From Lagopus muta (lineage: Eukaryota > Chordata > Aves > Galliformes > Phasianidae), in the NCBI RefSeq assembly GCF_023343835.1, contig NC_064439.1, forward strand, positions 29,675,933 to 29,739,932: a stretch of DNA of 64,000 nucleotides. The letters are read 5' to 3'. Shown here piece by piece: positions 25,701 through 57,065 of the stretch. Numbering within the stretch: position 1 is the first letter of the stretch; every line of letters starts with the position of its first letter. The notes below the pieces were generated by a model that saw nothing but the letters and a program-made list of their open reading frames with translations, did no database searches and was not told the origin of the DNA. The translations under genes and the position numbers were made by a program.

Positions 25701-28700
25701 ACACCCTAAATCAGTCTTGCCAGACATACAGTGATGCTTGGTTTCTAATCCTTATGTATATACAAACACTTTTTGGAACACTTGCTTCAAGTAGAGGACA
25801 GTGAGCAAAACATGACAAGGGAGAGTAGATGGAAATCCTCTTTTTCCTCTTTTTTTTTTTTTTTTTTTTTTCAGCCTACTTTATGTTTTTTAAGAAATCA
25901 TACAAATGAAAATTGTATATGAACTAAGTGAAAAAGCATGTATCTTTAAGTTAATGTTGTTAAGGAAAATAAGTTTTAATCAGTATCATTATCTGTACTG
26001 AAATATATTTTTTACCCTCAGAAGTTATATTTCAAGTATTTAAAATCTGTACTGCTGTTCTGCATCCTTTCATTTCACTCTGTACTGAGTGAGACATTGA
26101 CTGATGTGTTGCCAGGCCACTCTTAATGATGATTGAAAAGTCATGGCAGTCAGGTGAAGTCCTTGGTGACTGGTAAAAAGGTGATGTCACACCCATTTTC
26201 AACAAGGTTAGAAAGGAAAATCCAGGAAATTACCAGTCTGTCAGCCTCACTTCTGTGTTGGGGAAGACCATGGAGCAGATCCTTCTGAAAGCTATGCTAC
26301 AGCACATGGAGAGCAGGGAGGCAATATGGAACAAGTAGCATGGCTCCACCAAGTCCTGTTTGACCAGCATAGTGGTCTTCTATGATGGTGAACAAGGAAA
26401 AGGCCACTGATGTCATCTATCTGAACTTCAGTAAGGCTTTTGACAAAGTCCCTTATAACGTCCTTCTCTCCAAATTGAAAACATATGGATTTAACATGTG
26501 GGCTGTTCAATGGAAAAAGAATTCCCAGTTACTCCCCAGAGCGTGGTGTCAAAGACTCAATGTCCAAATGGAGATCAGTGGCAAGTTGTGTACCTCAGGT
26601 GTCAGTGCTGGTACAGATGCTCTTTAATATCTTCATCAGTGATAATGACTGTGTGATAAGTGCATTCCCAATGAGTTTGCATGAACCATGCTGTGTGGTG
26701 TAGTCAAGATGCCCGAGAGATAAGATATCATCCAGAGAGACCTAGACAAGCTCGAGCAGTGGGCCCAGGTGAACCTCATGAGGTTTGACAAAGCCAAGTC
26801 TTGTACCTGGATCTCAGCAGCCCCCACTACAGATGCAAGCTAGAGGATGCAAAGATAAAGCACAGCCCTGTGGAAAAGGATTTAGGGACACTGGTGGATG
26901 GCAGCTGGACACAAGCCAACAATTTGCCCTCGCAGCCCAGAAAGCCAGCTGTATCCTGGGCTGCATCAAGGGAAGCATGGTCAGCAGGTCAAGGGAGGTG
27001 ATCCTGCCTCTCTGCTCTGAGCTCACCTGGAGTAATGCGTGTGCAGTCCTCAGTACAGGACAGACATGAACCTTTGGAGCATGTCCAGAGGAGGGCCACA
27101 AAAATGATCCAAGGAATGGAACACCTCCCCTGTGAGAACAAGATGAGAGATGTGGGGCTGTTCAACCTGGAGTAGAAAAAGCTCCAAGGTGACCTGATAG
27201 TGGCCTTTCTGTATCAAAAGGGGGGTATAAGAAAGAAGATGACAGACTTTTACCAGGATCTCTTGTGACAAGACAAGGAGAAATGGTTTCAACTGAAAGA
27301 AGATTTAAACTAGATATATGAAAAAATGTTTTCTAAAATAAGAGTGGTGAGGCAGGTCGCCCAAAGAGATGGTGGAAGACATGCCCCTGGAGATATTCAA
27401 TATCAGGCTGGAGGGATCTCTGAGTAACCTGGTCAAGCCGTAGATGTCTTTGTTAATTGCAGAAGATTGGACTAGATGACCTTCAAGAGTCACTTGTAAT
27501 TCAAAAAATCCTATGATCTTATGATTCATTCCAATACTAAGAATTGTGGTTCATGTTCTCAATCTTCTTCTGTAACCACAGCAAAGTCTGGGAATTCAGT
27601 TTTTCTTAACCTAAGCAGAACTTTCAAATTTGCAAGTTCCCAAAGTCTGAGATGCAGTGGGAGAGAAAACAGGGAGATGTTTGTCAAAGACATGTTGGAG
27701 ATTCTCATATTGATGGAGTCTCCTGCCCAACCAACATGCGACCATGGCTGTATGTGTGCCCCTTAGTGGGATATTTTACAGCACAGAGCCCGGGCAGAAA
27801 AAGGGGCAGCCTATACTTTGGTCACACTGCCTGCCTCCCCCAACCCTCAGGGGATTCCATGTAGTTACATGGGATTGTCTCTCTGCATCTGCTCTGAAGG
27901 TCCCTCTGAAGGAGCACAAGAAAGACCACTGCAGTGCATGTGAAGCCTATGTACTGCTGAGGGCATGGCTGAGGAAGTCTCATAAGATTTGCTATAGCTG
28001 CAAGCTATAGCTGCAAGGTGCTCTCTGTTTTTATACTTCCTAAAGGTGTTTTCCTATGCTTTAAAACTATGGCTAATCATTACCAGGTTGATGTACTAGG
28101 TGTACATCAATTGTACACCTGCCTAAATGTACTGCATTGTGAAAAACGTCTGGATTTTGCCCTAAAGCTCCCTCTGATTTGCCTGGAAGATTATAAAGGC
28201 CACCAGAGGTTCTCTGTACCCTTTGAGTACTTGAAGCATACATTTTAAGCTCATATTACACAACTCACTGTTCATAAACATAGCGTATTTATCTCACCTG
28301 TTCAGTCATCTGTCCCTTTAAAAGGCTTATAAACACTGTTGTAACGCGTGCTTCTGAAAAGAAAATGAGAAGAACTGGCTTGAACACATGAACTCAGTAC
28401 TCCTTCCTCTCAGAATTTTGCAATTTATTTGAGCTGAATGCTTAACTGCTACAGAGAAGTTTGTTTAGTTTGCTTGATTTTCCTGAAAGTTGTGTAATTT
28501 TTAATCTCTGCTGCTTTGATCCAAAGCAACAAGGAAAATTGTGGTAAAACATTTTAGGACACAATCAAGGTAGCAGCTTTTGCTCAAAGTAGCGACAAAG
28601 AGCAGCAATAAATATGTATCATGGTGATAATTTCAGCCTAATCGTTAACTTAAAAAGCTTATCAGCAGGCCAAGGACTACATTAGCTGTTTGATAAAGGT

Positions 28701-31176
28701 ACCTGCAATACAAATATATGCATATAAAAATTGACTTTCTGTGTTTTATAAAAGCATTTGACTCAAGGTTATCTGATGTTTTAGGTAATGGTGAATGTGA
28801 AGCTGGTAAATGTAAATGCTTTGCTGATTGGGAAGGTGACCGTTGCCAGTGTTCATTACAATCAGCAAAGCAGTGCCTGAATTCAAAGGGCCAGATTTGC
28901 AGTGGAAGAGGAAATTGTGTATGTGGAAAATGTGAGTGCACTGACCCAAGAAGCTTTGGCCGTTTGTGTGAATACTGCCCTGCTTGTAACAAAGCCTGTG
29001 AAGAAAACTGGTAGGTTTTCCTTGTGCTACACTTCATGTTTAACTCTGTAGTGTTGAAGCAAGGAGAAATATTTCTTCTTGGCTATGTGTACTATGTGCT
29101 GTTTTCCTTAGATGTTTAGATTATAGGAAACTTGAAACATTTCCTACTCAAGGCTTCCTATCGTGTAGTTGGGTTTTCATGCTAACAAAACAGCTGAATG
29201 TCTACATCTATGTTCACCAATGTTTCTGCTTTGGGAAATCATAGGTGATATGTGGTGTGAGTATAGTTTTTTCATATGTACTAAAGTAAGGAAGACTAAG
29301 AATGAACATGAGGCTGACAGTGGAAGAGATGGTGCAAGACCCCAAAGGAACACATCTGAGAATGCAAAGCAGGGGCCAGATGAAGGGGGCTTGAAACCAA
29401 ACAGATGTTTTACTTACTAATTCTGAGTGGTCAGCCTTCAGAAGTGTCACAGGGATAAAATGCTGAGGAAGGCATCGCATTTCAGAAAAAAAATAAATGT
29501 CGCAATGTTTTTACTAACAACAGGAAAACATAATACGTCAGCTTGTTGATAGAATCTCTGTAAGAAGAGTGCAGAGAAAGACATAATGTTTTAATTACAT
29601 TTCTCTTACAGGAATTGTGTTCAGTGCCATCATTCTAACAATGCATCTCAAGCTAAACTTGACCAGTGTAAAACCTCATGTGCTTACCTATTGCATTACG
29701 TTGACCAAACTTCAGGTATGTGATATTTTCTGCATAATTTTGGTGAGAGTTCAAAATCTGTCCATATTGATGTTTGAAATGGTCACTGTTACAATGTATT
29801 TCAAAAGTGTGTCAGTATTATTACAGTAAGAAAGAGGGAAAGCAGAAAAAAAAAATTCCTTCTTGCTTCAGGGAAAGTAAAAGATAAATAGTAACAGGAA
29901 ATGTTATTGGCAAGCATTGCTAAATAGATTTCCCATTTCCTTGAGAAGTCACATCTAATAATAATGAATCCTGCCTGAGCCATGCTTAAAGAAATATTTA
30001 TAAAAGTCCATTATGACATTTGCATGTTATATTACATTGGATATGTTTACATTATTTGACATTACCAGAAATGAAGAAGGATGAAATAGAATGCTTACTT
30101 CACTGTCAGTAATGTTTAAATCTCCTTGCAAGTACAAAAATGTTGTAGTTTTGAGGACCTTGGAAGAATAAAAATGCTTTTTTATAAAATATCATTGAGC
30201 TTAATTAGTCCACACTGCATCAAAAATGGAAGTAGATAGTTACCTTATGTAACATCATATTTTTGTATGTCATTTTCTCTTGAAAATTTTTATGAATGGA
30301 AAAACTAGTTGAGAATACTTTTCTCGTGACCTTTTTAATTAGAAGAAAGTCTACTCTGTGAGAGCATTGGCCAGTGAGGGCAATACTGCACAAGGAATCA
30401 AGAAACTATGTTTTCTTTCATATTTCGCCTGTGATCTGTACTGTGAACCTCATGAAAATTAAACTGTTCTGGCCCTGAACATCTCTAACAATTCACCTTC
30501 TCAATTTCAGCTATAAACTCACTGGTTTGCAGTGTGGCTAGCACAGCAAAGCCTTAGTCCTACTTCTGTAGATTAAAAGGATGATATTTGAACATTTTTC
30601 TATGCTTGCTCTTAATCAGAGTTCATGATGTTCTTTGCTTTAAAAGTTTGTGTATGGTAACATGAGCAATTTTCCCTTATTGTTTTATGTGTTACATTTA
30701 TGCTCCTATAAAGTGCAGAGGTAAATGTAAATGTGCTTTAGTGATGTGCTTATTCTGTACATTAGGCTTTATGCTTGTGTTTTCCTTTCATTGCAGAATG
30801 TTTCTCTGGACGAAGCTACTTTAGAGTGTTTTCCATAATCTTTATAGTTACGTTTCTGATTGGGTTGCTTGTTGTACTTATCATCAGGCAGATAATTCTG
30901 CAGGGAAATAGCAATAAAGTTAAATCTTCAGCTGATTACAGAGTCTCTGCGACAAAGAAGGTAATTGATTTCAGAGCCATCGTGTTCAGTAATTTATTTC
31001 TTGCACATAAAAGTTAGCTAATTGTTGATAAAAATTGTATCTTCTCCTTCAAGGAAAAGATGTTTTTGCCTACTGTTTGTACAAGAACAGTAACATACAG
31101 ACGTGACAAACCAGAGGAAATAAATATCGACATCAGCAAGTTGCGGTTAAATGAAACTTTCAAGTGTGAATTCTGA
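4671..31176 (+). CDS. ITGB8: Integrin beta-8, exons 2-14 (5' exon outside window)
   Basis: Beta subunit that pairs with alpha-V at the cell surface. In mammals alpha-V/beta-8 binds RGD in latent TGF-beta and promotes TGF-beta activation. I recognise the protein by near-identity to mammalian beta-8 across the PSI, hybrid, beta-I, I-EGF, transmembrane and tail segments. Joined exons: 4671-4756, 7405-7579, 9757-10003, 11378-11543, 14221-14379, 19257-19352, 19447-19536, 22167-22301, 25096-25501, 28785-29010, 29612-29715, 30797-30960, 31054-31176. All introns are GT-AG and phases agree throughout. The sum is 2177 bp, or 724 residues plus a split first codon; the human protein has 769, so only exon 1 (signal peptide) is missing. 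Beta-8 traits are present: MIDAS DVSAS, then NN instead of the ADMIDAS Asp pair, and a tail without NPxY. Oddities: four fewer Cys in I-EGF1/2 than I recall for human, and Val for the membrane Lys. I see no frameshift or premature stop, so the gene looks intact. Confidence 0.97.
4757..7404 (+). other. ITGB8 intron 2, nothing else seen
   Basis: 2.6 kb of AT-rich intron between a GTATGG donor and an 'ataaaatag' acceptor whose pyrimidine tract is interrupted near the AG. I see no repeat family or coding segment in it. Confidence 0.8.
7405..7579 (+). CDS. ITGB8: ITGB8 exon 3: end of PSI and start of hybrid domain
   Basis: 58 codons plus one base, phase 0 in and phase 1 out, donor GTTGGG at 7580. 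It contains the last two PSI cysteines (KGRC and KRGC) and the first hybrid-domain strands, ending in VSVQLRPG. Mammalian beta-8 has a closely matching segment ending QLRPG. The donor GTTGGG is weaker than its neighbours, but the next exon joins in frame and restores GSEASF. Confidence 0.94.
7580..9756 (+). other. ITGB8 intron 3
   Basis: 2.2 kb AT-rich intron. It holds an (AAAAC)n microsatellite at about 8877-8905. No coding or regulatory element is recognised. The acceptor is 'cctttgaatcag'. Confidence 0.8.
8877..8905 (+). repeat. (AAAAC)n microsatellite
   Basis: About five tandem AAAAC units followed by AAC units, inside ITGB8 intron 3. It is visible directly in the sequence and is a probable length polymorphism. 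Confidence 0.9.
9757..10003 (+). CDS. ITGB8: ITGB8 exon 4: hybrid to beta-I domain with MIDAS
   Basis: Encodes the hybrid/beta-I junction and the first beta-I strand. The metal-ion site DVSAS (MIDAS) follows VDLYYLV and is directly followed by MHNN. In most integrin beta chains this position carries two Asp residues (ADMIDAS), and Asn here is a known beta-8 feature. [19 protein letters not shown] is conserved. An NIS glycosylation sequon (KMENISLDF) occurs where, as I recall, human beta-8 has AFFSRDF. Enters in phase 1 and leaves in phase 2 with donor GTATGT. Confidence 0.96.
10004..11377 (+). other. ITGB8 intron 4
   Basis: 1.4 kb AT-rich intron with no recognised repeat or gene. The acceptor 'tttattttgtacag' has a good pyrimidine tract. 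Confidence 0.8.
11378..11543 (+). CDS. ITGB8: ITGB8 exon 5: beta-I domain, ligand-specificity loop region
   Basis: Starts with the third base of a Ser codon (ag|t), followed by [18 protein letters not shown] and then [20 protein letters not shown]. The disulfide-bounded loop (HNQC in exon 4 to DC here) is the specificity-determining loop of integrin beta subunits. The NIDTPEGG stretch supplies metal-coordinating residues of the beta-I domain. The sequence reads LTDNIAEF, so it lacks the NIT sequon I recall in the human protein. Ends in phase 0 at donor GTAAGG. Confidence 0.96.
12592..12973 (+). repeat. CR1 retroposon, 3' end fragment
   Basis: Sense-orientation CR1 3' region. It runs from the 'gagcacctctcctatgaaga' block through a block resembling 'caggctgcccagagaggttg' and the 'ggatgtggctctgggcagcc' block to the closing 'ctattctgtgattctgtga'. 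It is diverged and has an internal deletion relative to the usual CR1 3' end. The terminal repeat ends at 12973, exactly where another CR1 segment begins. Confidence 0.9.
12974..13560 (+). repeat. CR1 retroposon, ORF2 C-terminal part, decayed
   Basis: Begins 'agtttgcagatgacaccaag', which is internal CR1 sequence coding for the reverse-transcriptase FADDT region. It continues through the usual 'atcctggcttgtatcagaa' block and fades near 13560. It is interrupted by stops and by an A-run at about 13360-13376. It resembles the copy at 56215-57065 more than the other CR1 pieces here. It has no terminal ATTCTRTGA repeats, so its 3' end is lost. Confidence 0.85.
14221..14379 (+). CDS. ITGB8: ITGB8 exon 6: beta-I domain core
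   Basis: 53 codons, phase 0 on both sides, donor GTAAGG. Encodes [20 protein letters not shown] and then [12 protein letters not shown]. This covers the hydrophobic beta strand and the MTDQT segment, whose Asp belongs to the MIDAS coordination shell, plus the GNC cysteine of the second beta-I disulfide loop. It is nearly identical to mammalian beta-8. Confidence 0.96.
14380..19256 (+). other. ITGB8 intron 6, largest visible complete intron
   Basis: 4.9 kb of mostly AT-rich sequence. The open frames at about 15198-15500, 17329-17559 and 17885-18226 lack splice signals or recognisable domains, and I regard them as chance. No interspersed repeat family is clearly identifiable. The acceptor is 'ctgttttattttgcag'. 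Confidence 0.7.
19257..19352 (+). CDS. ITGB8: ITGB8 exon 7: beta-I domain
   Basis: 32 codons in phase 0: [20 protein letters not shown], then FAVQG, ending HWYK. It matches mammalian beta-8 except for Ser in place of Lys after QG. It forms a late beta-I helix and strand pair. Donor GTAGGT, followed by a 94-bp intron. Confidence 0.96.
19447..19536 (+). CDS. ITGB8: ITGB8 exon 8: end of beta-I domain
   Basis: 30 codons in phase 0, starting [11 protein letters not shown] and ending VVEAYQ. This is the alpha-7 helix region of the beta-I domain, which couples ligand binding to hybrid-domain swing-out. The acceptor is 'attttttttgtag' and the donor GTATGA. Confidence 0.95.
19537..22166 (+). other. 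ITGB8 intron 8
   Basis: 2.6 kb intron with GTTT/GTTTT-rich DNA at about 19577-19620 and a short tandem of 'atagtgaaat' units at about 20767-20807. No gene or recognised transposon. The acceptor 'ttttctggttacag' is good. Confidence 0.75.
22167..22301 (+). CDS. ITGB8: ITGB8 exon 9: hybrid domain, second part
   Basis: 45 codons in phase 0. Encodes [13 protein letters not shown], then [13 protein letters not shown] and GMEGCKN. It carries the FNIT glycosylation sequon and the hybrid-domain disulfide (AIC to EGC). Human beta-8, as I recall it, has a further NVT sequon at the end that reads NVG here. Donor GTATGT. Confidence 0.95.
22302..25095 (+). other. ITGB8 intron 9
   Basis: 2.8 kb intron. 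About 23690-24090 and 24420-24640 are more GC-rich than the surroundings and hold overlapping open frames on both strands, but I see no splice signals or recognisable domains there. A-runs lie at about 24301-24314 and 24812-24825. The acceptor is 'tttttatttttcctag'. Confidence 0.7.
25096..25501 (+). CDS. ITGB8: ITGB8 exon 10: end of hybrid, I-EGF1, I-EGF2, start of I-EGF3
   Basis: Largest coding exon (135 codons plus one base; phase 0 in, phase 1 out, donor GTAAGC). It starts [13 protein letters not shown] with an NVS sequon and a second sequon in GFNETT. It continues into the Cys-rich stalk: [60 protein letters not shown] count 13 Cys. By my recollection of human beta-8 the same exon has 17; the missing ones are the third Cys of CxCxC, one before DETF, one before HCSD and one in GDCIEG. 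The reading frame is intact and DETF, KDQP and YGKYC are conserved, so this looks like substitution rather than decay. Confidence 0.93.
26109..27530 (+). mobile_element. CR1 LINE, 5'-truncated copy with decayed reverse transcriptase
   Basis: Longest CR1 copy in the window, sense orientation, 1.4 kb. It begins inside ORF2 at the sequence for 'kattlndd..ks' and runs to a 3' tail of 'cctatgatcttatgattc'. The frame around 26382-26490 still reads [20 protein letters not shown], the RT motif with the conserved YLDFSKAFD-like core. Stops and frameshifts elsewhere make it inactive. CR1 elements insert by target-primed reverse transcription and are usually 5' truncated, as here. Confidence 0.93.
28088..28120. 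repeat. Two overlapping 9-bp inverted repeats
   Basis: TTGATGTAC (28088-28096) is the exact reverse complement of GTACATCAA (28102-28110). AGGTGTACA (28098-28106) is the exact reverse complement of TGTACACCT (28112-28120). Both have five-base loops and share the middle arm, so the two hairpins exclude each other. The element lies in intron 10, and its function is unknown. Confidence 0.9.
28785..29010 (+). CDS. ITGB8: ITGB8 exon 11: I-EGF3 and I-EGF4
   Basis: Enters in phase 1 and leaves in phase 2 (the codon tg|g encodes Trp). It encodes [21 protein letters not shown], then [25 protein letters not shown] and [12 protein letters not shown]. The GxGxC...CxC pattern is typical of integrin EGF modules, which form the extended stalk of the beta leg. 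GECEAGKC lacks a Cys present in most beta chains, a feature shared with human beta-8. The donor is GTAGGT. Confidence 0.96.
29011..29611 (+). other. ITGB8 intron 11
   Basis: 0.6 kb intron with no recognised element. The acceptor is 'acatttctcttacag'. Confidence 0.85.
29612..29715 (+). CDS. ITGB8: ITGB8 exon 12: beta-tail region
   Basis: Short exon encoding [20 protein letters not shown], then [14 protein letters not shown]. It is the reduced membrane-proximal beta-tail segment of beta-8, with an NAS sequon. The [11 protein letters not shown] portion is about two residues shorter than the human form I recall. Leaves in phase 1 at donor GTATGT. Confidence 0.94.
29716..30796 (+). other. ITGB8 intron 12
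   Basis: 1.1 kb AT-rich intron with nothing else recognised. The acceptor is 'tttcctttcattgcag'. Confidence 0.82.
30797..30960 (+). CDS. ITGB8: ITGB8 exon 13: transmembrane helix and proximal tail
   Basis: Encodes [12 protein letters not shown], then the single membrane helix [18 protein letters not shown], the stop-transfer RQ, and the first cytoplasmic residues ([18 protein letters not shown]). The membrane helix has VV where human beta-8, as I recall, has KV; the snorkelling Lys is thus replaced by Val. The tail has no NPxY talin/kindlin motif, as is known for beta-8. Ends in phase 0 at a weak donor, GTAATT. Confidence 0.96.
31054..31176 (+). CDS. ITGB8: ITGB8 exon 14: cytoplasmic tail and stop
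   Basis: Encodes [20 protein letters not shown], then [10 protein letters not shown], ending FKCEF and TGA (31174-31176). It matches the unusual beta-8 tail, which diverges from all other beta subunits and lacks NPxY and the HDRRE-type motif. The intron before it is only 93 bp, with acceptor 'cttctccttcaag'. Confidence 0.96.
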   Translation, partial: EKMFLPTVCTRTVTYRRDKPEEINIDISKLRLNETFKCEF

Positions 31177-34700: not shown

Positions 34701-36472
34701 AATTCCCTTATGTTCACATGCAATGTTGCGAGTGAACCTTAAAAAGGAAGGACATGTGTGTAGGCATAGTTTACATTTTAGCCACTATAACTAACTGGAT
34801 TTATTTTTTCCGTTCTATGATATCACAAAAACCTGCTATGTAAAGTATTCTTCAGACCACAGTGGAAAAAAATATTTTCCCAATCTGATCATACATTTGT
34901 TTTCTGCTTAGTATGCATACTTAAATGCATGTGCAGCATAAACTGTGGAAGTGAATGTGTGAAGCAGCTTCAAGCAACCCTTACTCCTGCAGGTGGCCAT
35001 AAGGGACAGCAGTGCCCAGGACAAAAGGATGTAGGGGCCCTATTGCCTTTGCAGTAGGCATCCCAAGCACACTGCTGTTCCTCATGGCATCTCAACAGAG
35101 ATGGCACTCCGGGACTGTATTTCTCCATCTGTCAGGGCAGGAGGCCTTGTCAGAGGAGGTAATCCTAATGGCCACACTGGAGATGCATGACGTGCAGCCC
35201 ACAGTCATCAACACTGCAGCCTGTTTGCATCTTTACTCATCAAACACTGCTTGCATACAACCTAGTGAGGTACTGTAAATCTGGGTGCTGCAGCCCTCCT
35301 TGAGAGAGAAAGCAAGCCTTCCTCCTGTAAAGTCCTTGGGCATCTGTACATCATCTTCTCCCCAGCCCCAGGATTTGCATTGCCAGGCCTTCTGTGATGT
35401 TTTCAGTAGCTAGGAAGGGCGCTTCTCATAAGGGTGCTGTGTGACAATTACTCTGCTCTGTGAATGAACTGTGGTGCCAGTGTTCTTGCTCTCCCTTTGA
35501 AATAGAGGTGCAAGATCTATTTGGTAAAAAGGAGTGAAGCAGCGTTAAGAATGACACTACTTTACCATGGTAATCTTGATGCTTCTTGATGCACAGACAT
35601 CTCATGGATATTACACAGAACAGAAATTCATGGAGAGAAAGAAAAGGTTAGGCGTAGCTAATGTGAATGTTTTTCTATAGCGAGTCAAATCAGTGGGATT
35701 TCACTGAGTGCAAGCCAACTCAGAATGATTGGTCATTCTGGGAAAAAAAAAAAATAAAAAAATATTAAAAAAACCCACAAAATTAGTAGATTCTTAAGTT
35801 TTAGAAATGTTTCTCTTTGTTTAGATTTCTGGTTATTAAAAAAAAAATTTTAAACATGACTTTTGTTTAAACAACAGCTTCTGTTCAAATCCTAACTTTT
35901 CATCATGATACCTATGCGTGAGTTGTTTGTATTTTGAAGGGCGAGGCTGAAAGATGAGAGATTAATTTAGGAAGGCATTTGTTTTAGAAGAATTCACTGT
36001 GCTAACATCTTCACTTTTACTTCACTACTGCTTCAAAGTGTCTTATTAAGCGATGATGTGACAACTATTAATATTACTACAGTTTTTAACTTTCTATTTA
36101 ACATATACTACCTTTTGTAAAAAAAATTATATACAGATGAATAATGTTTCTCTAGATTTTATGCATAGAGAATGTTAGTAAGGGAAGACGGTTTAATTAT
36201 ATCTGTAACTTCTTACTGTCCATCTTCCATTTTAAATGATACTTTTAAATCACTACTTTTTTTTGTCTGGAAATATTCTGAATATTTTATTATTTAAAAT
36301 AGTATACTTTTATAGCTGTTTATTAATTTCAGTTGACTACTAACTTCTATTTTGATATTTATTAATGAGTTGACACTGTAGTATATTGAGATGTTTATTT
36401 TTCTATCAGAGCTGTAACAACTATGACATAGCATTATTTTAATGCAACATCATTGTACTTGCTCTCTAAAAA

Positions 36473-36478
36473 AATAAA
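36473..36478 (+). terminator. Distal polyadenylation signal AATAAA
   Basis: Canonical hexamer at the end of a long AT-rich tract. I take it as the likely end of the long ITGB8 3' UTR because the sequence character changes soon after. This is not proven. Confidence 0.4.
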
Positions 36479-36495
36479 ATCAATATTTAATCTCT

Positions 36496-37146
36496 ATGGA
36501 ATTTTCATATTTTTAATGCCTAGGTAAGATAAGGAAGATAATTCTTTTTTAAGAATTAACATGTTTTCATCAAGGTGTGCAAATACGTCCACAAAGAGGA
36601 TATGCTTATGTTGTTTTTCAAATGGTACAAGACATTGTCAGGAGAATTCAAGCTAAATAAAAAGAATACCTTGATGTTCAGATGTTGCCTAACAAATAAA
36701 CACACATTCAGGATGGGGACAAGAAAATACTTCCGACAGAAATATAAGCTATCTATTAATAGATGGTTACAGTATCCTGCTTTGCTCTGCTTTGATAGCA
36801 GAGGAGCTCCTGTCATGCGTATGGGTCAGTTTCTTGCAGATGCATTGTCCATGCTGCTTGCTGCAGACCCATGTTGCTTTTGAGGTCTGGTGAAATGCAT
36901 CAGTAGACTGGGACACCTCCGTTCTCCTGCACAGTTGGTAATAGTGTACACTCTGCGCAACATTATCACATTTCTTGTAGAAATCACTGCTAAACTGAAG
37001 GGGTTCTTTCACATGAAGCTCCTAGGAAGATCCAGGTTTTTCTCTGGGGGTAGGAAAGAGGTAGAATCAAATGTTGACTGGTATAAACCCAGTCATTAAG
37101 CCATGTAGTGTGCAGGCCTTAACAGTACACTAGAAAAATACAACAG

Positions 37147-37182
<36 letters not shown>

Positions 37183-37621
37183 ACAAACCAACTGGGAAAA
37201 GATGCACAGAAAACCTAGAAAGAAAAAAGTAATCACAATGGCATTGTGGGCATCTTTGTTGCGTTTTTCTGCAAAGTAAGGAAGGTAAACCCAATTTAAG
37301 CCCGATGAGACAGAGGCAGAGGAATTTCCTTTTGCAGAGGCAGAAGATACATAAGCATTAATTAACAGAGAGAGCAGGAACTTGCAACCACTCCCACAGA
37401 GGAAAAACACATTTTCTACAACAGCTTTTTATGGAGGGAATGTTAATGTTGTCAACACCTCTGAGTAAACATCCTGGATCAGACACACAGTTTTAGCAGC
37501 TTGAGCTACAGGCACAGGGCTGCTTTTTGCTGCTTCATGTACAATCTCAAAGTCAGTGGTAACACTAATCAAATCTCTGACAGACTGGCACTAAGTCTAT
37601 GCCTACCCTCTATGTTTTGGA
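36496..37621 (+). other. Spacer between ITGB8 and candidate small gene
   Basis: 1.1 kb. It holds an open frame at 36575-36883 without recognisable features, a 34-base A tract at 37147-37180, and a perfect forkhead-type GTAAACA at 37465-37471, about 155 bases before the candidate start codon. No CpG island or clear TATA box. Confidence 0.6.
37147..37180 (+). repeat. Poly(A) tract, 34 bases
   Basis: Uninterrupted A34. CR1 does not leave long A tails, so its origin is unclear. No retrocopy could be recognised in the DNA just upstream. Confidence 0.95.
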
Positions 37622-38285
37622 ATGATGGTAAGTGATCTGTTTGAAGCCTTCCATCCTTACTGTGTCCTGAAATCCTAAAAACATGCCTATGTACCTTAAA
37701 ATGTCCAGGTATTGGTAGGGTTTTGACAATGGCAGCACCATATTTAGCCAGTTTCCATTTGTGCCCATGAAGTTGTCAGTGAGGGCACAGTGGTGCTCTA
37801 ATTTGACTAATGTAATGCAACTGCTATTTTGTTGCAGATACCATTGACCAGAAAAAGGCTTGCTGCTCAAGCTCTCCAAAGAGGAATGAAACCTAAGTTA
37901 CAGCCTCTAAAGCCGGAGGAGGAAAGAGATCCTTCTTTCAGCCACTTTTTTGACACCAGTCATGTAGGTGCACACTATTACAGAATTTCTCTCCCTGCAT
38001 GATTCCCATTGTGGCGGGTGCAGAATTTGACCTGATATACAGAGAGGATGCAGGGGACAAAAGTTCAGCATGTAAGTTATCTGCTCAGCACAGCGTTTGA
38101 GTGAAGATCTGAATTTGTGTGATAACAGCCGGAAGGCAATTGTTGGAATAACAAATAAAGGCTTTGTTAACAGGCTGATTTTAACTAGTGAGAAGTTAAT
38201 CTGAAAAATGGTTGGTTTGTTCTCCTTCCAGGTCTACAACAAAGAGAAGAACTTTGGAAACACACTCCTGCTACCCTGGGCTTGA
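37622..38285 (+). CDS. Candidate three-exon gene for a 60-61 residue protein, unrecognised
   Basis: Predicted exons: 37622-37627 (ATG ATG, then a consensus GTAAGT donor at 37628), 37838-37963 (126 bp, acceptor 'ctattttgttgcag', donor GTAGGT), and 38232-38285 (acceptor 'ttctccttccag', ending TGG GCT TGA). All joints are phase 0, and only one frame of the middle exon is open. The product would start M(M)IPLTRKRLAAQ. A basic first half (RKR, QRGMKPK) leads to an acidic PEEERDP patch, then SHFFDTSHVYNKEKNFG and a hydrophobic LLLPWA end. No signal peptide, membrane helix or Cys is present. AATAAA follows 28 bases after the stop. I do not recognise the family. Alternatives: these are the last two exons of a larger gene, or an alternative 3' end of ITGB8, whose exon 13 also ends in phase 0. 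The first exon is the least certain part. Confidence 0.5.
37838..37963 (+). CDS. Middle exon of candidate small gene
   Basis: 126 bp, 42 codons without a stop in frame 0, while the other two frames stop early (TGA and TAA). The strong polypyrimidine acceptor and GTAGGT donor are visible in the sequence. Residues include LTRKRLAAQALQRG, KPKLQPLKPEEER and FSHFFDTSH. The composition is protein-like, unlike the low-complexity frames nearby. Confidence 0.6.
38232..38285 (+). CDS. Terminal exon of candidate small gene
   Basis: Starts after a textbook pyrimidine tract (tttgttctccttccag). It encodes VYNKEKNFGNTLLLPWA and a TGA. The 268-bp intron before it is compact for a bird gene. The 3' UTR would be only about 50 bases. 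Confidence 0.58.
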   Translation, partial: VYNKEKNFGNTLLLPWA

Positions 38286-38312
38286 AACCAAATAGTTTAA
38301 ATGTATTATAAT

Positions 38313-38318
38313 AATAAA
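38313..38318 (+). terminator. Polyadenylation signal of candidate small gene
   Basis: AATAAA 28 bases after the stop codon, followed by a GT-rich stretch ('ctgtgtttgggg', about 38363-38374) at the distance expected for a downstream element. Confidence 0.55.
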
Positions 38319-39172
38319 TTAAACAGAAAATCTAGTTTTACAGAAACCTGAATGGTCTGGAACTGTGTTTGGGGCACAGGTATCCTCAGTGCAGTTCATG
38401 GGCTTGATGCTTGTCTTCTGTTTGGGAGTCCTGTGTTCATCCAAATTCCGCCTGTTCTGAATTTACATTACTTAGGCATAGGCTGCAAGTCTGATTTATT
38501 AGTTCTAGTGGCCCGACGTTATGATCTTCTGGCCCTTTATTCAAGGAAATAGTGGTGGGTGGCAGAAAGCAACGTTCCTTCTTGCAAATCATTCATCATC
38601 TGCTGAGCCCAAGCATAATATGGCCTCTAGCTGTTTTCTTGGCCTTGAACTCGATGATTAATGAAGGACAGTTACTGTTTAATAAGATGATGTGCGTGCA
38701 AGCTGATAAAACTAAACGATTAACCAAAAAACATAACATTTCCAAGTGACATCACATTATGCTTATTGAAATCAGGGCACATGATGTACTTCTTCCAGCT
38801 TTGCAGCTTGCCAAGTTCCCTTTTTGAACCCCTAACCAACATTTCATCCTAAGCCTCTGTTTATGCCTCAGCAATCTGGAGAGCCCAGGACCTGTTCCTG
38901 AGATTCCTGTGCTCCCAAAACTGCTCAGTTTCTGTTCTCCCTCACATCCTCTTCTTATTTGTCTATCACCACATCCTTAAGGTATGTGATTTAACTGCAA
39001 TGAAAATGAGACAAATCAATGGATAATTTTATGTGGGATTTTTAGACAAACATTTGCTTTACTCTGCTTTAGACAAAACAAGACTTTTAAAGACTTCTAC
39101 ATGTTAATCCTGGTGCTCTCTACAGCTTTCTTCTTTCCTTCAGTCATTCTGCATTTGTGCCTGGACTCCTGT

Positions 39173-39206
<34 letters not shown>

Positions 39207-41347
39207 CCAGAAAAAGGTCCTTCCCATTTTTTCCTCAAAATTGTGTCATCTGAAATTATGCTTTCCTTGAAAATCAGAGGCACTGAATCAGAAGGCTTCA
39301 TCAGTGAACAGCTCATTTATCTTCAGAAGAAATTTTTTTTTTTTTGGTCTTCGAGCAGACAGGAGTGAGTTCAAGTCTGTAAGACAAAGCTAAACAGAAC
39401 ACCTCCCAGCTTTCATATTCCTCTTCTTTCCAGTGCTAAGAAGTCAGATCTGTTCCTTGCTGTGCTAGACAGTTCTAGAATAGGGACTCTATCTCTAGGT
39501 ATAACCTTTAAATCTGACACCTTCACATCTTCTGCAAGGTATATGCAACACACAAGATCCAAAGACAACCCATTTTAAGTGCCATCGTTCTGGTATTCCT
39601 TATACTTTTTCATGTATTTCTTTATGACTGCATATTCCATCCAAAGTAACTTTTCTTCAGTATCAAGAAACCCATCTCTGTATAACCTGCTAGACCAGAC
39701 AATATAGATGTATATACTAATATGTACTATCGATCCAAATACACCCTCACAAACATATTTTTTAAATGGGATTCCTCCCATACTTTCTCATGCATTGCAG
39801 GATCTTCCCTTAAGGTTTCCTGTACTTATCCAAGGTTCTCCTGGTGACTATGCTGCTATCACATTGAAATCATAACTCTAAGTGTTCCCCAGTATTCATC
39901 TCCTTTAGCCTTTGCACTTTCCTGTTTACCTTTTTTAGCTGCTGTCCCACATTGCATCTAAATCATGGAAGACAAACACAGCATCCCGCTCAGTGGATTC
40001 TTCGGTCATAGTCATAATTTTATAAGTCAGAAAAAATATTTCTCTATCTAGTTTATTCTTCATTACTGTGAGTCTGGTATCTTGGTTTCAAACATGAAAA
40101 GTTTATTTGAGCTGATGTTGCCTCCTGGATCAAAAAGAGTTTATCCAAGCAACTGTTGTATTCTTATATTTTCTGTTTATACACTTTCCACTTACTGAAA
40201 AATTAGCTGCTTTTTGAACTACCTGAAAACAATGCAATGTAAAAGTCACTGTACTATCCAGGAATTTTGCTCACCTAGTTAACTGGCATTTCTTCAAGTG
40301 TGTTAATGAAAAATGTATTCAAACATTGTTATTTTGTGAAAAAAAAAAAAAAAAGTTTATCAAATGACTGTCAACATAACTCAATATCTTGAAGGAAAGT
40401 GTGTTACTGAGTGTAACTGCTATCATTTACACTATTTGATACATTTGGTGACCTAATTCAAATGGAATTCATGTGCTTTTATCTTGACAGATTTTACTCC
40501 TTCCTTGATTATGGCCCAGTTACTACTGCTTCTCTAAGCCAACATAGGTGCTTGCCAACAAAGTGAAGTCTGCACTATCTTATTGAACTACTGAGATAAG
40601 GAAGCTGTTTTTCTTGAGCAAGCTCTGGCAAAGATATTATAATTTTGGTATGCTTGCAACACCTGTGTTAATGCAGTTTTACCAGATTTAAAATTTATAA
40701 GGAAACTACAGTAGCATAGCTACTCCTGAAGTTCAGCAAACCTGAAATTAGCTCACTTTCCTCTAAGTCAGCTATCCTACCATGACAGCCATACACACAG
40801 ATGGTAGTTTCTCCACAGGGGAAACACTAATAATAATTTCTCTCTCCTTATAAGAAAAAAAAGCTTACAAAGTTTTTTTCTTCCTTCCATCTTTCTGAAT
40901 AGCTGCAAGAACAACTCCTAAAGCAGGCCCTTCTGCCAGTTTTCTTCCATTAGCATCTCTAAGTACATGCATAAAACAAAAGGCATAAAAACACAGTTAT
41001 CGATTTTTTCCACTTCTCTACTAGAACAAAAAAACAAAAAAATCTTGTCAAGCTATTTAATTCCAGACTTGTATTTACTCTATGCTAGAGCCAGCCCTCA
41101 AGGAACAAGGCATCTTGCCCCCAGCCTCTGGCTTGGTACCTGTGGCTGGGTAGCCTCCTCCCACACATCCCATTTCAAATTCTTCCTAGATGGGCTGTTG
41201 TCCTTGAATGCTCTTGCTTGTCTACTTGATTAGCTTATTAATGTCTTGGCTCTGTATGGAGGTTTCCAGGAAAGAGAAAATTTCATTAAGGGGATACTGA
41301 ATTAGTCCTGCAATCTACAGTTACATGAAGGATATTGTACAGGAACT
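38319..41347. other. Intergenic, no gene seen
   Basis: 3 kb without a credible coding exon. It holds a 31-base A tract at 39175-39205 and shorter A-runs. The open frames at about 38352-38552 and 40967-41233 are unsupported by domains or splice context. Confidence 0.7.
39175..39205 (+). repeat. Poly(A) tract, 31 bases
   Basis: Uninterrupted A31 in intergenic DNA. No recognisable retrocopy precedes it. Confidence 0.95.
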
Positions 41348-41634: not shown

Positions 41635-42255
41635 ATATTTATTTAATGAGATGTACTATTTATAACTAAATGGACCATGAAACTTATATTTCTTTAGTAG
41701 ATCTATATCTTCAGCTCCTAGTGCAGCTACAATTTCATTTTAGATTTTCTGCCTTCTATCTAATCTACAGCTCCCATAGCAGGAAGGTAACTACACTATT
41801 CCAACAGTTACTTGGCAAATCAGCTATCTACCTATTCTCTGAGCTTTACAGCACGCGTTCCTTCAGTGTCTGAGCCTGGTTTCCTATGAATCATTTCTAC
41901 CTCTTTTGGTCTCTATAATTTCCTATCTTAAGAACTTCTGAAAAAGTATATTTTAGGAACAAAAAAACCCACCTTATTTGGTAGTAGGGTAACTTAGAGC
42001 CTAGAAACCTGAGATTTCAAAGACTGTTTGTCAGTTTTGGCAGTAAGTCATGCAGATGATATAGTTTTCATATGTAGTCACTGGACTGTCCTGCTGTCAG
42101 TGATACCATCTGATAACCAGGTCATTTGGCAGGTGCCCAGAATTACAAACTGAATTTTTAATTAGGCATCACTATGACAAAGTAAAGGATTATATCTAAA
42201 ACAAAAATAAAATGAGACAGAAACAAGGGTACCTCTGAAAACAGTTATGCCAAAG

Positions 42256-42640
42256 ATTAAGGCTGCGGGGTGACCTCATTGCAGCCTTTCAATACCTAAA
42301 GGGAACCTACAAACAGGAGGGGAATCAACTCTTTGAAAGGGTTGATATGTGTAGGACGAGGGGAAATGGTTTTAAGTTGAGGGAGGGGAGATTTAGGTTG
42401 GATGTCAGGGGGAAGTTCTTTACAGAGAGAGTGGTGAGGTGCTGGAACAGGCTGCCCAGAGAGGTTGTGGATGCCCTGTCCCTGGAGGTGTTCAAGGCCA
42501 GGTTGGATGGGGCCCTGGGCAGCCTGGTTTAGCATTAAACGTGGAGGTTGGTGGCCCTGCATGTGGCAGGGGGGGTTGGAGATTCATGATCCTTAAGGTC
42601 CCTTCCAACCCTGGCCATGCTGTGATTCTGTGATTATGAT
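42256..42640 (+). repeat. CR1 retroposon, 3' end, relatively young
   Basis: Sense CR1 3' region starting near 'aaggctgcggggtgacctca' and ending 'gtgattctgtgattatgat'. It is less diverged than the other copies and retains an open frame (42347-42532) across the usual 'cccagagaggttgtggatgc' block. It is 5' truncated. Confidence 0.93.
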
Positions 42641-55400: not shown

Positions 55401-56214
55401 TGAGGACTGGGAAAACCACAAGCAAGTGGCATGATCAGTGCCGGAACAGAGTCCAGCTGTGGGACAGATGTGTCCTGGCACATGCTGCCACTCCTGGAGC
55501 CCCGTGGTGGCTGTGCCAACTGTGTGCAGTTTCCTTCCAAATCACTGGGAGAGATTTCACTCTGACCCTGTAAATTAACATCAGCCACTCTCAGAGGGCT
55601 AGATCTGATCATCTGGCCAGCATTGGAATGGGAAAGCAAAGCTTTGGAGCAAAGCAGTGGTAAGGTTTCAGTTTGCATGTCATCTCCTGGAGCTGCTAGC
55701 ATGAACAAAATGTATGTGCATGAGTAGGCTGCACAAAATTTGGCAGTTTTGAAAGTTGCTTTCAATCTGAATCAGCTCACAGATTGAAGAGCTGCCTGGA
55801 CAGCCCTGCTGGTAAGAGGAACATGTAAACTACAATTTGCTGGTATCTCCAGTTATATCACCAGGATATATAGGAAGACAGAGTCATGGAGGCTATCCTC
55901 CACAGCTCTTCAGTTCAGTCAATAGAAGAAAGATGGGAAGATTGAAGCAGTGACAGAGTTCTAGGGATTCAGTGCCCCCTGGCATCCTGTCCTAATCAGA
56001 GAGAAGCCTCTTCCTCTCGCTACTTGGCTGTGTCATTTGCTTTTGAGCCAAATTAATCAGAGAACAAGTCCTGGCATGAACTGGAGGAAATTGAAGGCTT
56101 TGGGAAAACTCCAAGCTTTATTCCATGAATATTCATTTAATATAGAAGTACAATTTACCACAGGGTATAGAATACTGAATCTAATGACACAAAGTAGAGA
56201 AGAAGTATCAATAT
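49491..56214. other. Intergenic, no gene seen
   Basis: 6.7 kb. T/G-rich low-complexity DNA lies at about 49690-49810. Frames at 51561-51870, 53244-53540, 53902-54326 and, on the minus strand, 55203-55765 were examined and show no domain, splice structure or repeat family I can name. Confidence 0.6.
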
Positions 56215-57065
56215 GCCAGGGGGTAGGAAGACTGTTCAGAGGGATCTGGACAGACTAGATCACTTGTCTAAGTCCAAGGGGATGAAGTTCAACAAGACCA
56301 AGTATCAGGTTCTATATTTTAGCCACAGTAACCCCAGACAATGCTACAGGATTGGGGCAGAACGTCTGGAAGACTGTGTGGAAGAAATAGACCTGGGTGT
56401 GTTGGTCAGTGGTCAGCTAAACACGAGCCAGCAGTGTGCCTGCATGGCCAAGGCCAGTGGCATCCTGGCTTGTATCAGAAGTAGTGTTGGCAGCAGGAGC
56501 AGGGAAATGATCATCCCCCTCTACTCAGCACTGTTGAGGCCACACCTCAACTACTGCGTTCAGTTTTGACCCCCTCACTACAAGAAAGACATCAAGGCCC
56601 TGGAACGTGTCCAGAGAAAGGCAACGAAGCTGCTGAGCGGTCTGGAGCCCAAGTCTCATGAGGATTGACTGAGGGAACTGGGGATGTTTAGTCTGGAGAG
56701 GAGGAAATTCAGGGGAGACCACGTAGCACTCCACAGCTGCCTGAAAGGAGGTTGCAATGAGGTGGGAATCAGCTTATTCTCCTGGGTAACTAGTGATAGG
56801 ACTAGAACGAATGGCCTCAAGTTGCACTAGGGGAGGTTCAGGTTGGATATTAGGAAAAAAATTATTCTCCCAAACTGATGCATTGGAATGGGCTACAAAG
56901 GAAGGTAGTGGAGTCGCCGTCCCTGGAAGCATTGAAGTAACATTTAGATGTTGTACTAAGGGACATGATTTAGTGAGGAAGTATCGGTGGTACATGGACT
57001 GTTGAACTAGATGATCTTGGAGATTTATGATTCTATGACTCTGTGATTCTATGATTCGATAATTC
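56215..57065 (+). repeat. CR1 retroposon, 0.85 kb fragment
   Basis: Sense CR1 from within ORF2 to the 3' tail. Blocks include 'aagttcaacaagaccaagta', 'ggcatcctggcttgtatcag', 'ctcaactactgcgttcag', 'gtccagagaaaggcaacgaa' and the end 'gattctatgactctgtgatt' with four ATTCTRTGA-like units. It is of the same subgroup as 12974-13560. A decayed frame (56213-56569) covers the C-terminal RT region. Confidence 0.93.

Follow-up and report, generated by a model that had tools for sequence, protein, structure and literature searches.

A candidate compact three-exon microprotein gene downstream of ITGB8 in Lagopus muta

We analyzed 64,000 nucleotides of Lagopus muta DNA (contig NC_064439.1, positions 29,675,933 to 29,739,932 of the forward strand; hereafter the window) and found the ITGB8 gene on its + strand. 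A 208-residue C-terminal part assembled from the exons matched integrin beta-8 (PDB 6uja chain B, which we take to be the human protein) with an E-value of 4.8e-104 and aligned to the last residue. A search of the 64-kb window for ABC-transporter nucleotide-binding motifs identified none, and a scan of 60 kb of the same contig past the window end located two such domains, ~26 and ~45 kb beyond that end and also on the + strand. We take these two domains to be probably those of ABCB5, which they fit by position. The candidate described below therefore probably sits between ITGB8 and ABCB5, with one gene before it and the other after it on the same strand, as the original prediction had placed it. 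That prediction had also put the candidate just downstream of ITGB8; ITGB8 does precede it, but 6.4 kb separate the two when measured from the ITGB8 stop codon. In a paper on goose, ABCB5, ITGB8, MACC1, OTUD1 and TWISTNB are assigned to one scaffold. Between the two ABC domains we also noted a 94-codon open frame rich in Glu, Lys and Ser (extended coordinate 95187) that may form the transporter's linker. Elsewhere in the window, frames at 26373-26624, 42239-42529 and 56198-56566 resembled, by eye, reverse transcriptase and C-terminal parts of CR1-type retroelements, and these fragments suggest a bird genome.

The features of the candidate and of the neighboring ITGB8 exons are collected in Table 1. 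Checked against the sequence, the ATGATG/GTAAGT start, exon 2, the terminal exon with its TGA, the AATAAA and the GTAAACA were all found where they had been reported. One frame was kept through both joints and gave a translation of 61 amino acids, with a computed mass of about 7.15 kDa and a pI of 9.87 for the joined frame. An in-frame TAA lies ten codons 5' of the first ATG, and both ATGs of the start carry a purine at -3. With a transcription start guessed to lie near 37455, three other ATGs, each having a pyrimidine at -3, would come before the ATGATG. The two candidate introns are 210 and 268 nt long. TTGTTGCAG directly precedes exon 2 at 37838 and CTCCTTCCAG directly precedes the terminal exon at 38232; in exon 2 the coding frame is the sole open one, since the two other frames contain stops. 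The TGA is separated from the AATAAA at 38313 by 27 nt, and a TG-rich stretch, TGTGTTTGGGG, follows ~45-55 nt 3' of that signal. The predicted tryptic peptides of the product include LAAQALQR and one that crosses the exon 2/3 joint, DPSFSHFFDTSHVYNK. The locus thus holds what a short spliced coding gene should have: a frame open across the joints together with a start, a stop and a poly(A) signal.

Table 1. Coordinates of the candidate gene model and of adjacent features in the window
Feature	Position	Strand	Basis and remarks
ITGB8 penultimate coding exon (transmembrane)	30797..30960	+	Integrin beta-8 match (E 4.8e-104) and translation; phase 0 at end
ITGB8 last coding exon with stop	31054..31176	+	Integrin beta-8 match and translation
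GTAAACA, forkhead-like, not distinctive	37465..37471	+	157 nt 5' of first ATG
Candidate exon 1, coding part (ATGATG, then GTAAGT)	37622..37627	+	Sequence; donor rank 16/3611
Candidate exon 2 (126 nt, 42 codons, phase 0/0): IPLTRKRLAAQALQRGMKPKLQPLKPEEERDPSFSHFFDTSH	37838..37963	+	Translation; followed by GTAGGT
Candidate terminal exon, coding part: VYNKEKNFGNTLLLPWA, then TGA (17 residues + stop)	38232..38285	+	Sequence and translation; acceptor rank 2/4449
AATAAA (putative poly(A) signal)	38313..38318	+	Sequence

We scored the splice sites with hand-entered position weights and ranked them among the 4449 AGs and 3611 GTs on the + strand of the window. On this scale the terminal acceptor (38232) ranked second among the AGs and the first donor (37627) sixteenth among the GTs. 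The sites flanking exon 2 had been described in the original prediction as strong, a description that did not survive the ranking, as both were mediocre: the acceptor ranked 119/4449 and the donor (CAT/GTAGGT, with T at -1) 118/3611. That observation thus stood for its features and its reading frame but overstated the exon 2 splice sites. The exon 2 donor is not strong, yet it is not disqualifying, since the ITGB8 donor at 30960 ranked only 71/3611 on the same scale. An alternative exon 2 donor four bases further on (37968) ranked 524/3611 and was rejected. When we searched 31.2-37.8 kb for an upstream extension, seven open phase-0 donors scored >2, and none was convincing except that of the ATGATG exon.

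Purine-only hexamers resemble the sites to which splicing enhancer proteins bind. Counted with a simplified rule of our own, applied after the purine runs had been noticed, such hexamers reached a density of 0.116 in exon 2, within the top 1.0% of 126-nt windows, and of 0.122 in the terminal exon, within the top 4.0% of 54-nt windows. The density was 0 and 0.023 in the two candidate introns, and seven ITGB8 exon stretches showed no enrichment (0.006-0.055). Amino-acid composition, on the other hand, says little: 6.1% of 13181 open 42-codon windows scored at least as high as exon 2, and the measure is weak because the exons of ITGB8 itself did no better (five peptides). Codon usage was likewise discarded as a discriminator; with a chicken codon table exon 2 scored -3.4, but several ITGB8 exons were negative too, and the measure failed to single out most exons of that gene. 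In the ranking of 42-codon stretches by protein-like composition, third place went to a hydrophilic 83-codon open frame at 29169-29417, which lies inside the ITGB8 gene between coding exons and had no Pfam match.

We searched for relatives of the candidate among protein families, structures and genomes. Pfam gave no match to the peptide at E-values up to 10, nor to any of ten open frames of the window, including that with exon 2, up to E 0.1. Among PDB chains, 31 sequences were returned up to E 10, starting from E 0.44 and nearly all of them cytochrome b562 constructs, which is chance level; the C-terminal 29 residues searched alone matched no PDB chain. Within its own genome (a 1.03-Gb assembly of 165 contigs), the DNA of 37500-38400 matched only itself in a search that skipped very common words and so does not prove rarity, and the peptide, searched in six frames up to E 10, matched only its own two exons, leaving no detectable paralogue. 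An origin as a repeat is therefore unlikely. A local search of the window and 27 loci returned, besides the gene itself, only chance-level matches at E 0.41 and above. Comparison of 36400-39400 with the rest of the window revealed similarity limited to simple, A-rich sequence close to 39.2 kb. Pure A tracts lie on either side of the candidate, at 37147-37180 (34 nt) and 39175-39205 (31 nt); they may be tails of old retrocopies or products of slippage. Viral and prokaryote collections gave 19 and 129 pattern matches, respectively, with none confirmed as a relative, as expected for a vertebrate sequence. Scans of the window with Rfam (gathering threshold) and for tRNAs were empty. Literature searches on the ITGB8/ABCB5 interval, C7orf78, chicken microproteins and bird cilia genes yielded nothing on the locus among the matches listed.

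Since short models of this kind may arise by accident, we compared the candidate with the best models in 400 order-5 Markov windows, using a summed score and both strands. When introns of up to 1500 nt and any phase were allowed, 210 of the 400 random windows matched or beat the candidate, and 50 did so in phase 0. With introns limited to 300 nt the counts fell to 10/400 in any phase and 0/400 in phase 0. The excess over chance hinges on the allowed model class. A slightly looser class, which admitted ATTAAA and a shorter exon 2, gave a null median best score of 30.4 (100 random windows), and the candidate scored 28.3. Models better than the candidate were also present on the real minus strand (35.4, at 27.0-27.1 kb) and in the window when read backwards (30.3). 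The minus-strand model, a three-exon arrangement at 27027-27129 in this loosest class, adjoins retroelement-like frames, and it demonstrates that such scores are easily reached. On the + strand of the window the candidate was the top three-exon model. In order-4 random strands, no such triple occurred among 120 when the thresholds were set to the candidate's own values, and 17/120 had one at looser thresholds. We also scanned 26 other 10-kb stretches of this contig on both strands, a count that loses models cut by the stretch ends: no compact model (introns to 300 nt) reached the candidate score, vs 10 loci in these 260 kb when introns of up to 1500 nt were allowed. Together with the random-window counts by class, this indicates that compactness is the unusual part of the model, a criterion that was picked after seeing the case.

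The open frame, the splice-like sites, the poly(A) signal and the synteny are observed features of this locus. The two top-ranked splice sites, the compactness, the enhancer-like hexamers and the open frame together somewhat favor a real spliced transcript. We tentatively read 37838-37963 and 38232-38285 as the coding exons of a short intergenic gene, or as the last two coding exons of a slightly longer one. As a single reading the small coding gene leads, short of an even chance, with chance close behind. Of the three-exon microprotein gene originally proposed, the compact model and the synteny held and the forkhead argument did not, and the coding role is a candidate reading. The prior for a novel coding gene is not negligible, because, according to the PhyloCSF study (PMC6886504), novel coding regions and pseudogenes that full curation could bring to light may number in the hundreds in chicken, fly, worm and mosquito. 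As presented there, chicken tracks were made too, and our candidate resembles the PhyloCSF candidate regions in its short open exons, conventional splice sites and possible gap in annotation. The evidence for those regions is the pattern of codon substitution over many genomes, whereas the present candidate is known from one.

The most serious rival is that intergenic DNA under no constraint happens to hold a 42-codon open frame flanked by usable splice-like sites and close to an AATAAA, and that the locus is neither spliced nor translated. We regard this as quite possible. The frequent matches in random windows when introns may reach 1.5 kb agree with it, and so do the undistinctive composition and the lack of a Pfam or PDB relative or of a paralogue in the same genome; by simple scaling, a 1.03-Gb genome would contain hundreds of accidental models at the compact any-phase rate of 10/400. 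Against it stand the lack of any equally good compact model in 260 kb of the same contig, the failure of random windows to match the compact phase-0 model, the occurrence together of two top-ranked splice sites, and the purine hexamers, which are specific to the exons.

A spliced non-coding transcript, either an lncRNA or an ITGB8 readthrough RNA spliced downstream, would also account for the splice sites, the enhancer-like hexamers and the poly(A) signal, as none of these needs a coding function, and the open frame would then be incidental. Everything observed is compatible with such an RNA, including the undistinctive composition and the ATGs upstream of the start. We nevertheless consider it unlikely, as the frame is open across both joints, though the frame helped to pick the candidate.

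Less probable still is an alternative ITGB8 terminus: the penultimate exon (end at 30960, phase 0) would bypass the usual last exon and be spliced to 37838, which would give integrin beta-8 a different 59-residue cytoplasmic tail. The splice is phase-compatible and the fused frame runs open as far as the TGA of the candidate, but such a phase match is expected one time in three by chance. The nearest AATAAA 5' of the candidate is at 36695 and the + strand has none from there to 38154, so that ITGB8 transcripts passing 36.7 kb could reach the signal at 38313. On the other side, the usual last exon is intact, and its match with integrin beta-8 extends through the last residue. The candidate shares with the integrin beta-8 cytoplasmic tail its neighboring position, its strand and the phase at the last intron, but the two sequences look unrelated by eye. 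The literature on integrin beta-8 isoforms listed no such isoform among its matches, which we take as silent either way. Readings that we have not thought of take the small share left after the four named here.

The original prediction had taken the forkhead-like site as fitting a gene of ciliated cells or testis. This argument is empty because GTAAACA or its complement TGTTTAC occurs 16 times in the 64-kb window, and the chance of finding one such site in the 200 nt before a given start is ~5%; the site carries no weight. After a motif search of the window we rejected both forkhead and X-box motifs as evidence. Ciliary and sperm microtubule inner proteins form a class of small and basic proteins, many of which are in the Protein Data Bank. 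The candidate is likewise small and basic, but it had no convincing match to any chain in the PDB copy searched, and its forkhead site is not distinctive.

If the small coding gene is real, a compact transcript would start between ITGB8 and ABCB5 at a promoter of its own, lose two short introns of 210 and 268 nt, and be cleaved after the AATAAA at 38313. Translation from the ATGATG start would then produce a basic protein of 60-61 residues (~7.2 kDa, pI 9.9). As no transmembrane or secretion signal was apparent by eye, the product may be a soluble intracellular peptide. Its basic N-terminal half could bind an acidic partner, and the C-terminal tail, with its aromatic and hydrophobic anchors, could dock into a larger assembly. 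A more specific proposal, which we consider doubtful, is that the ITGB8-ABCB5 interval of birds holds a previously unrecognized single-copy gene for this 60-61 residue protein, one that was either born in birds or is old and was lost from mammals, and that has no Pfam or PDB relative.

If the candidate is not real, it would illustrate how readily AT-rich intergenic DNA produces short open frames that have plausible splice sites, and how strongly their count depends on the chosen model class. If it is real, a well-studied syntenic interval would contain a tiny coding gene, which would make a concrete test case for lineage-restricted microproteins.
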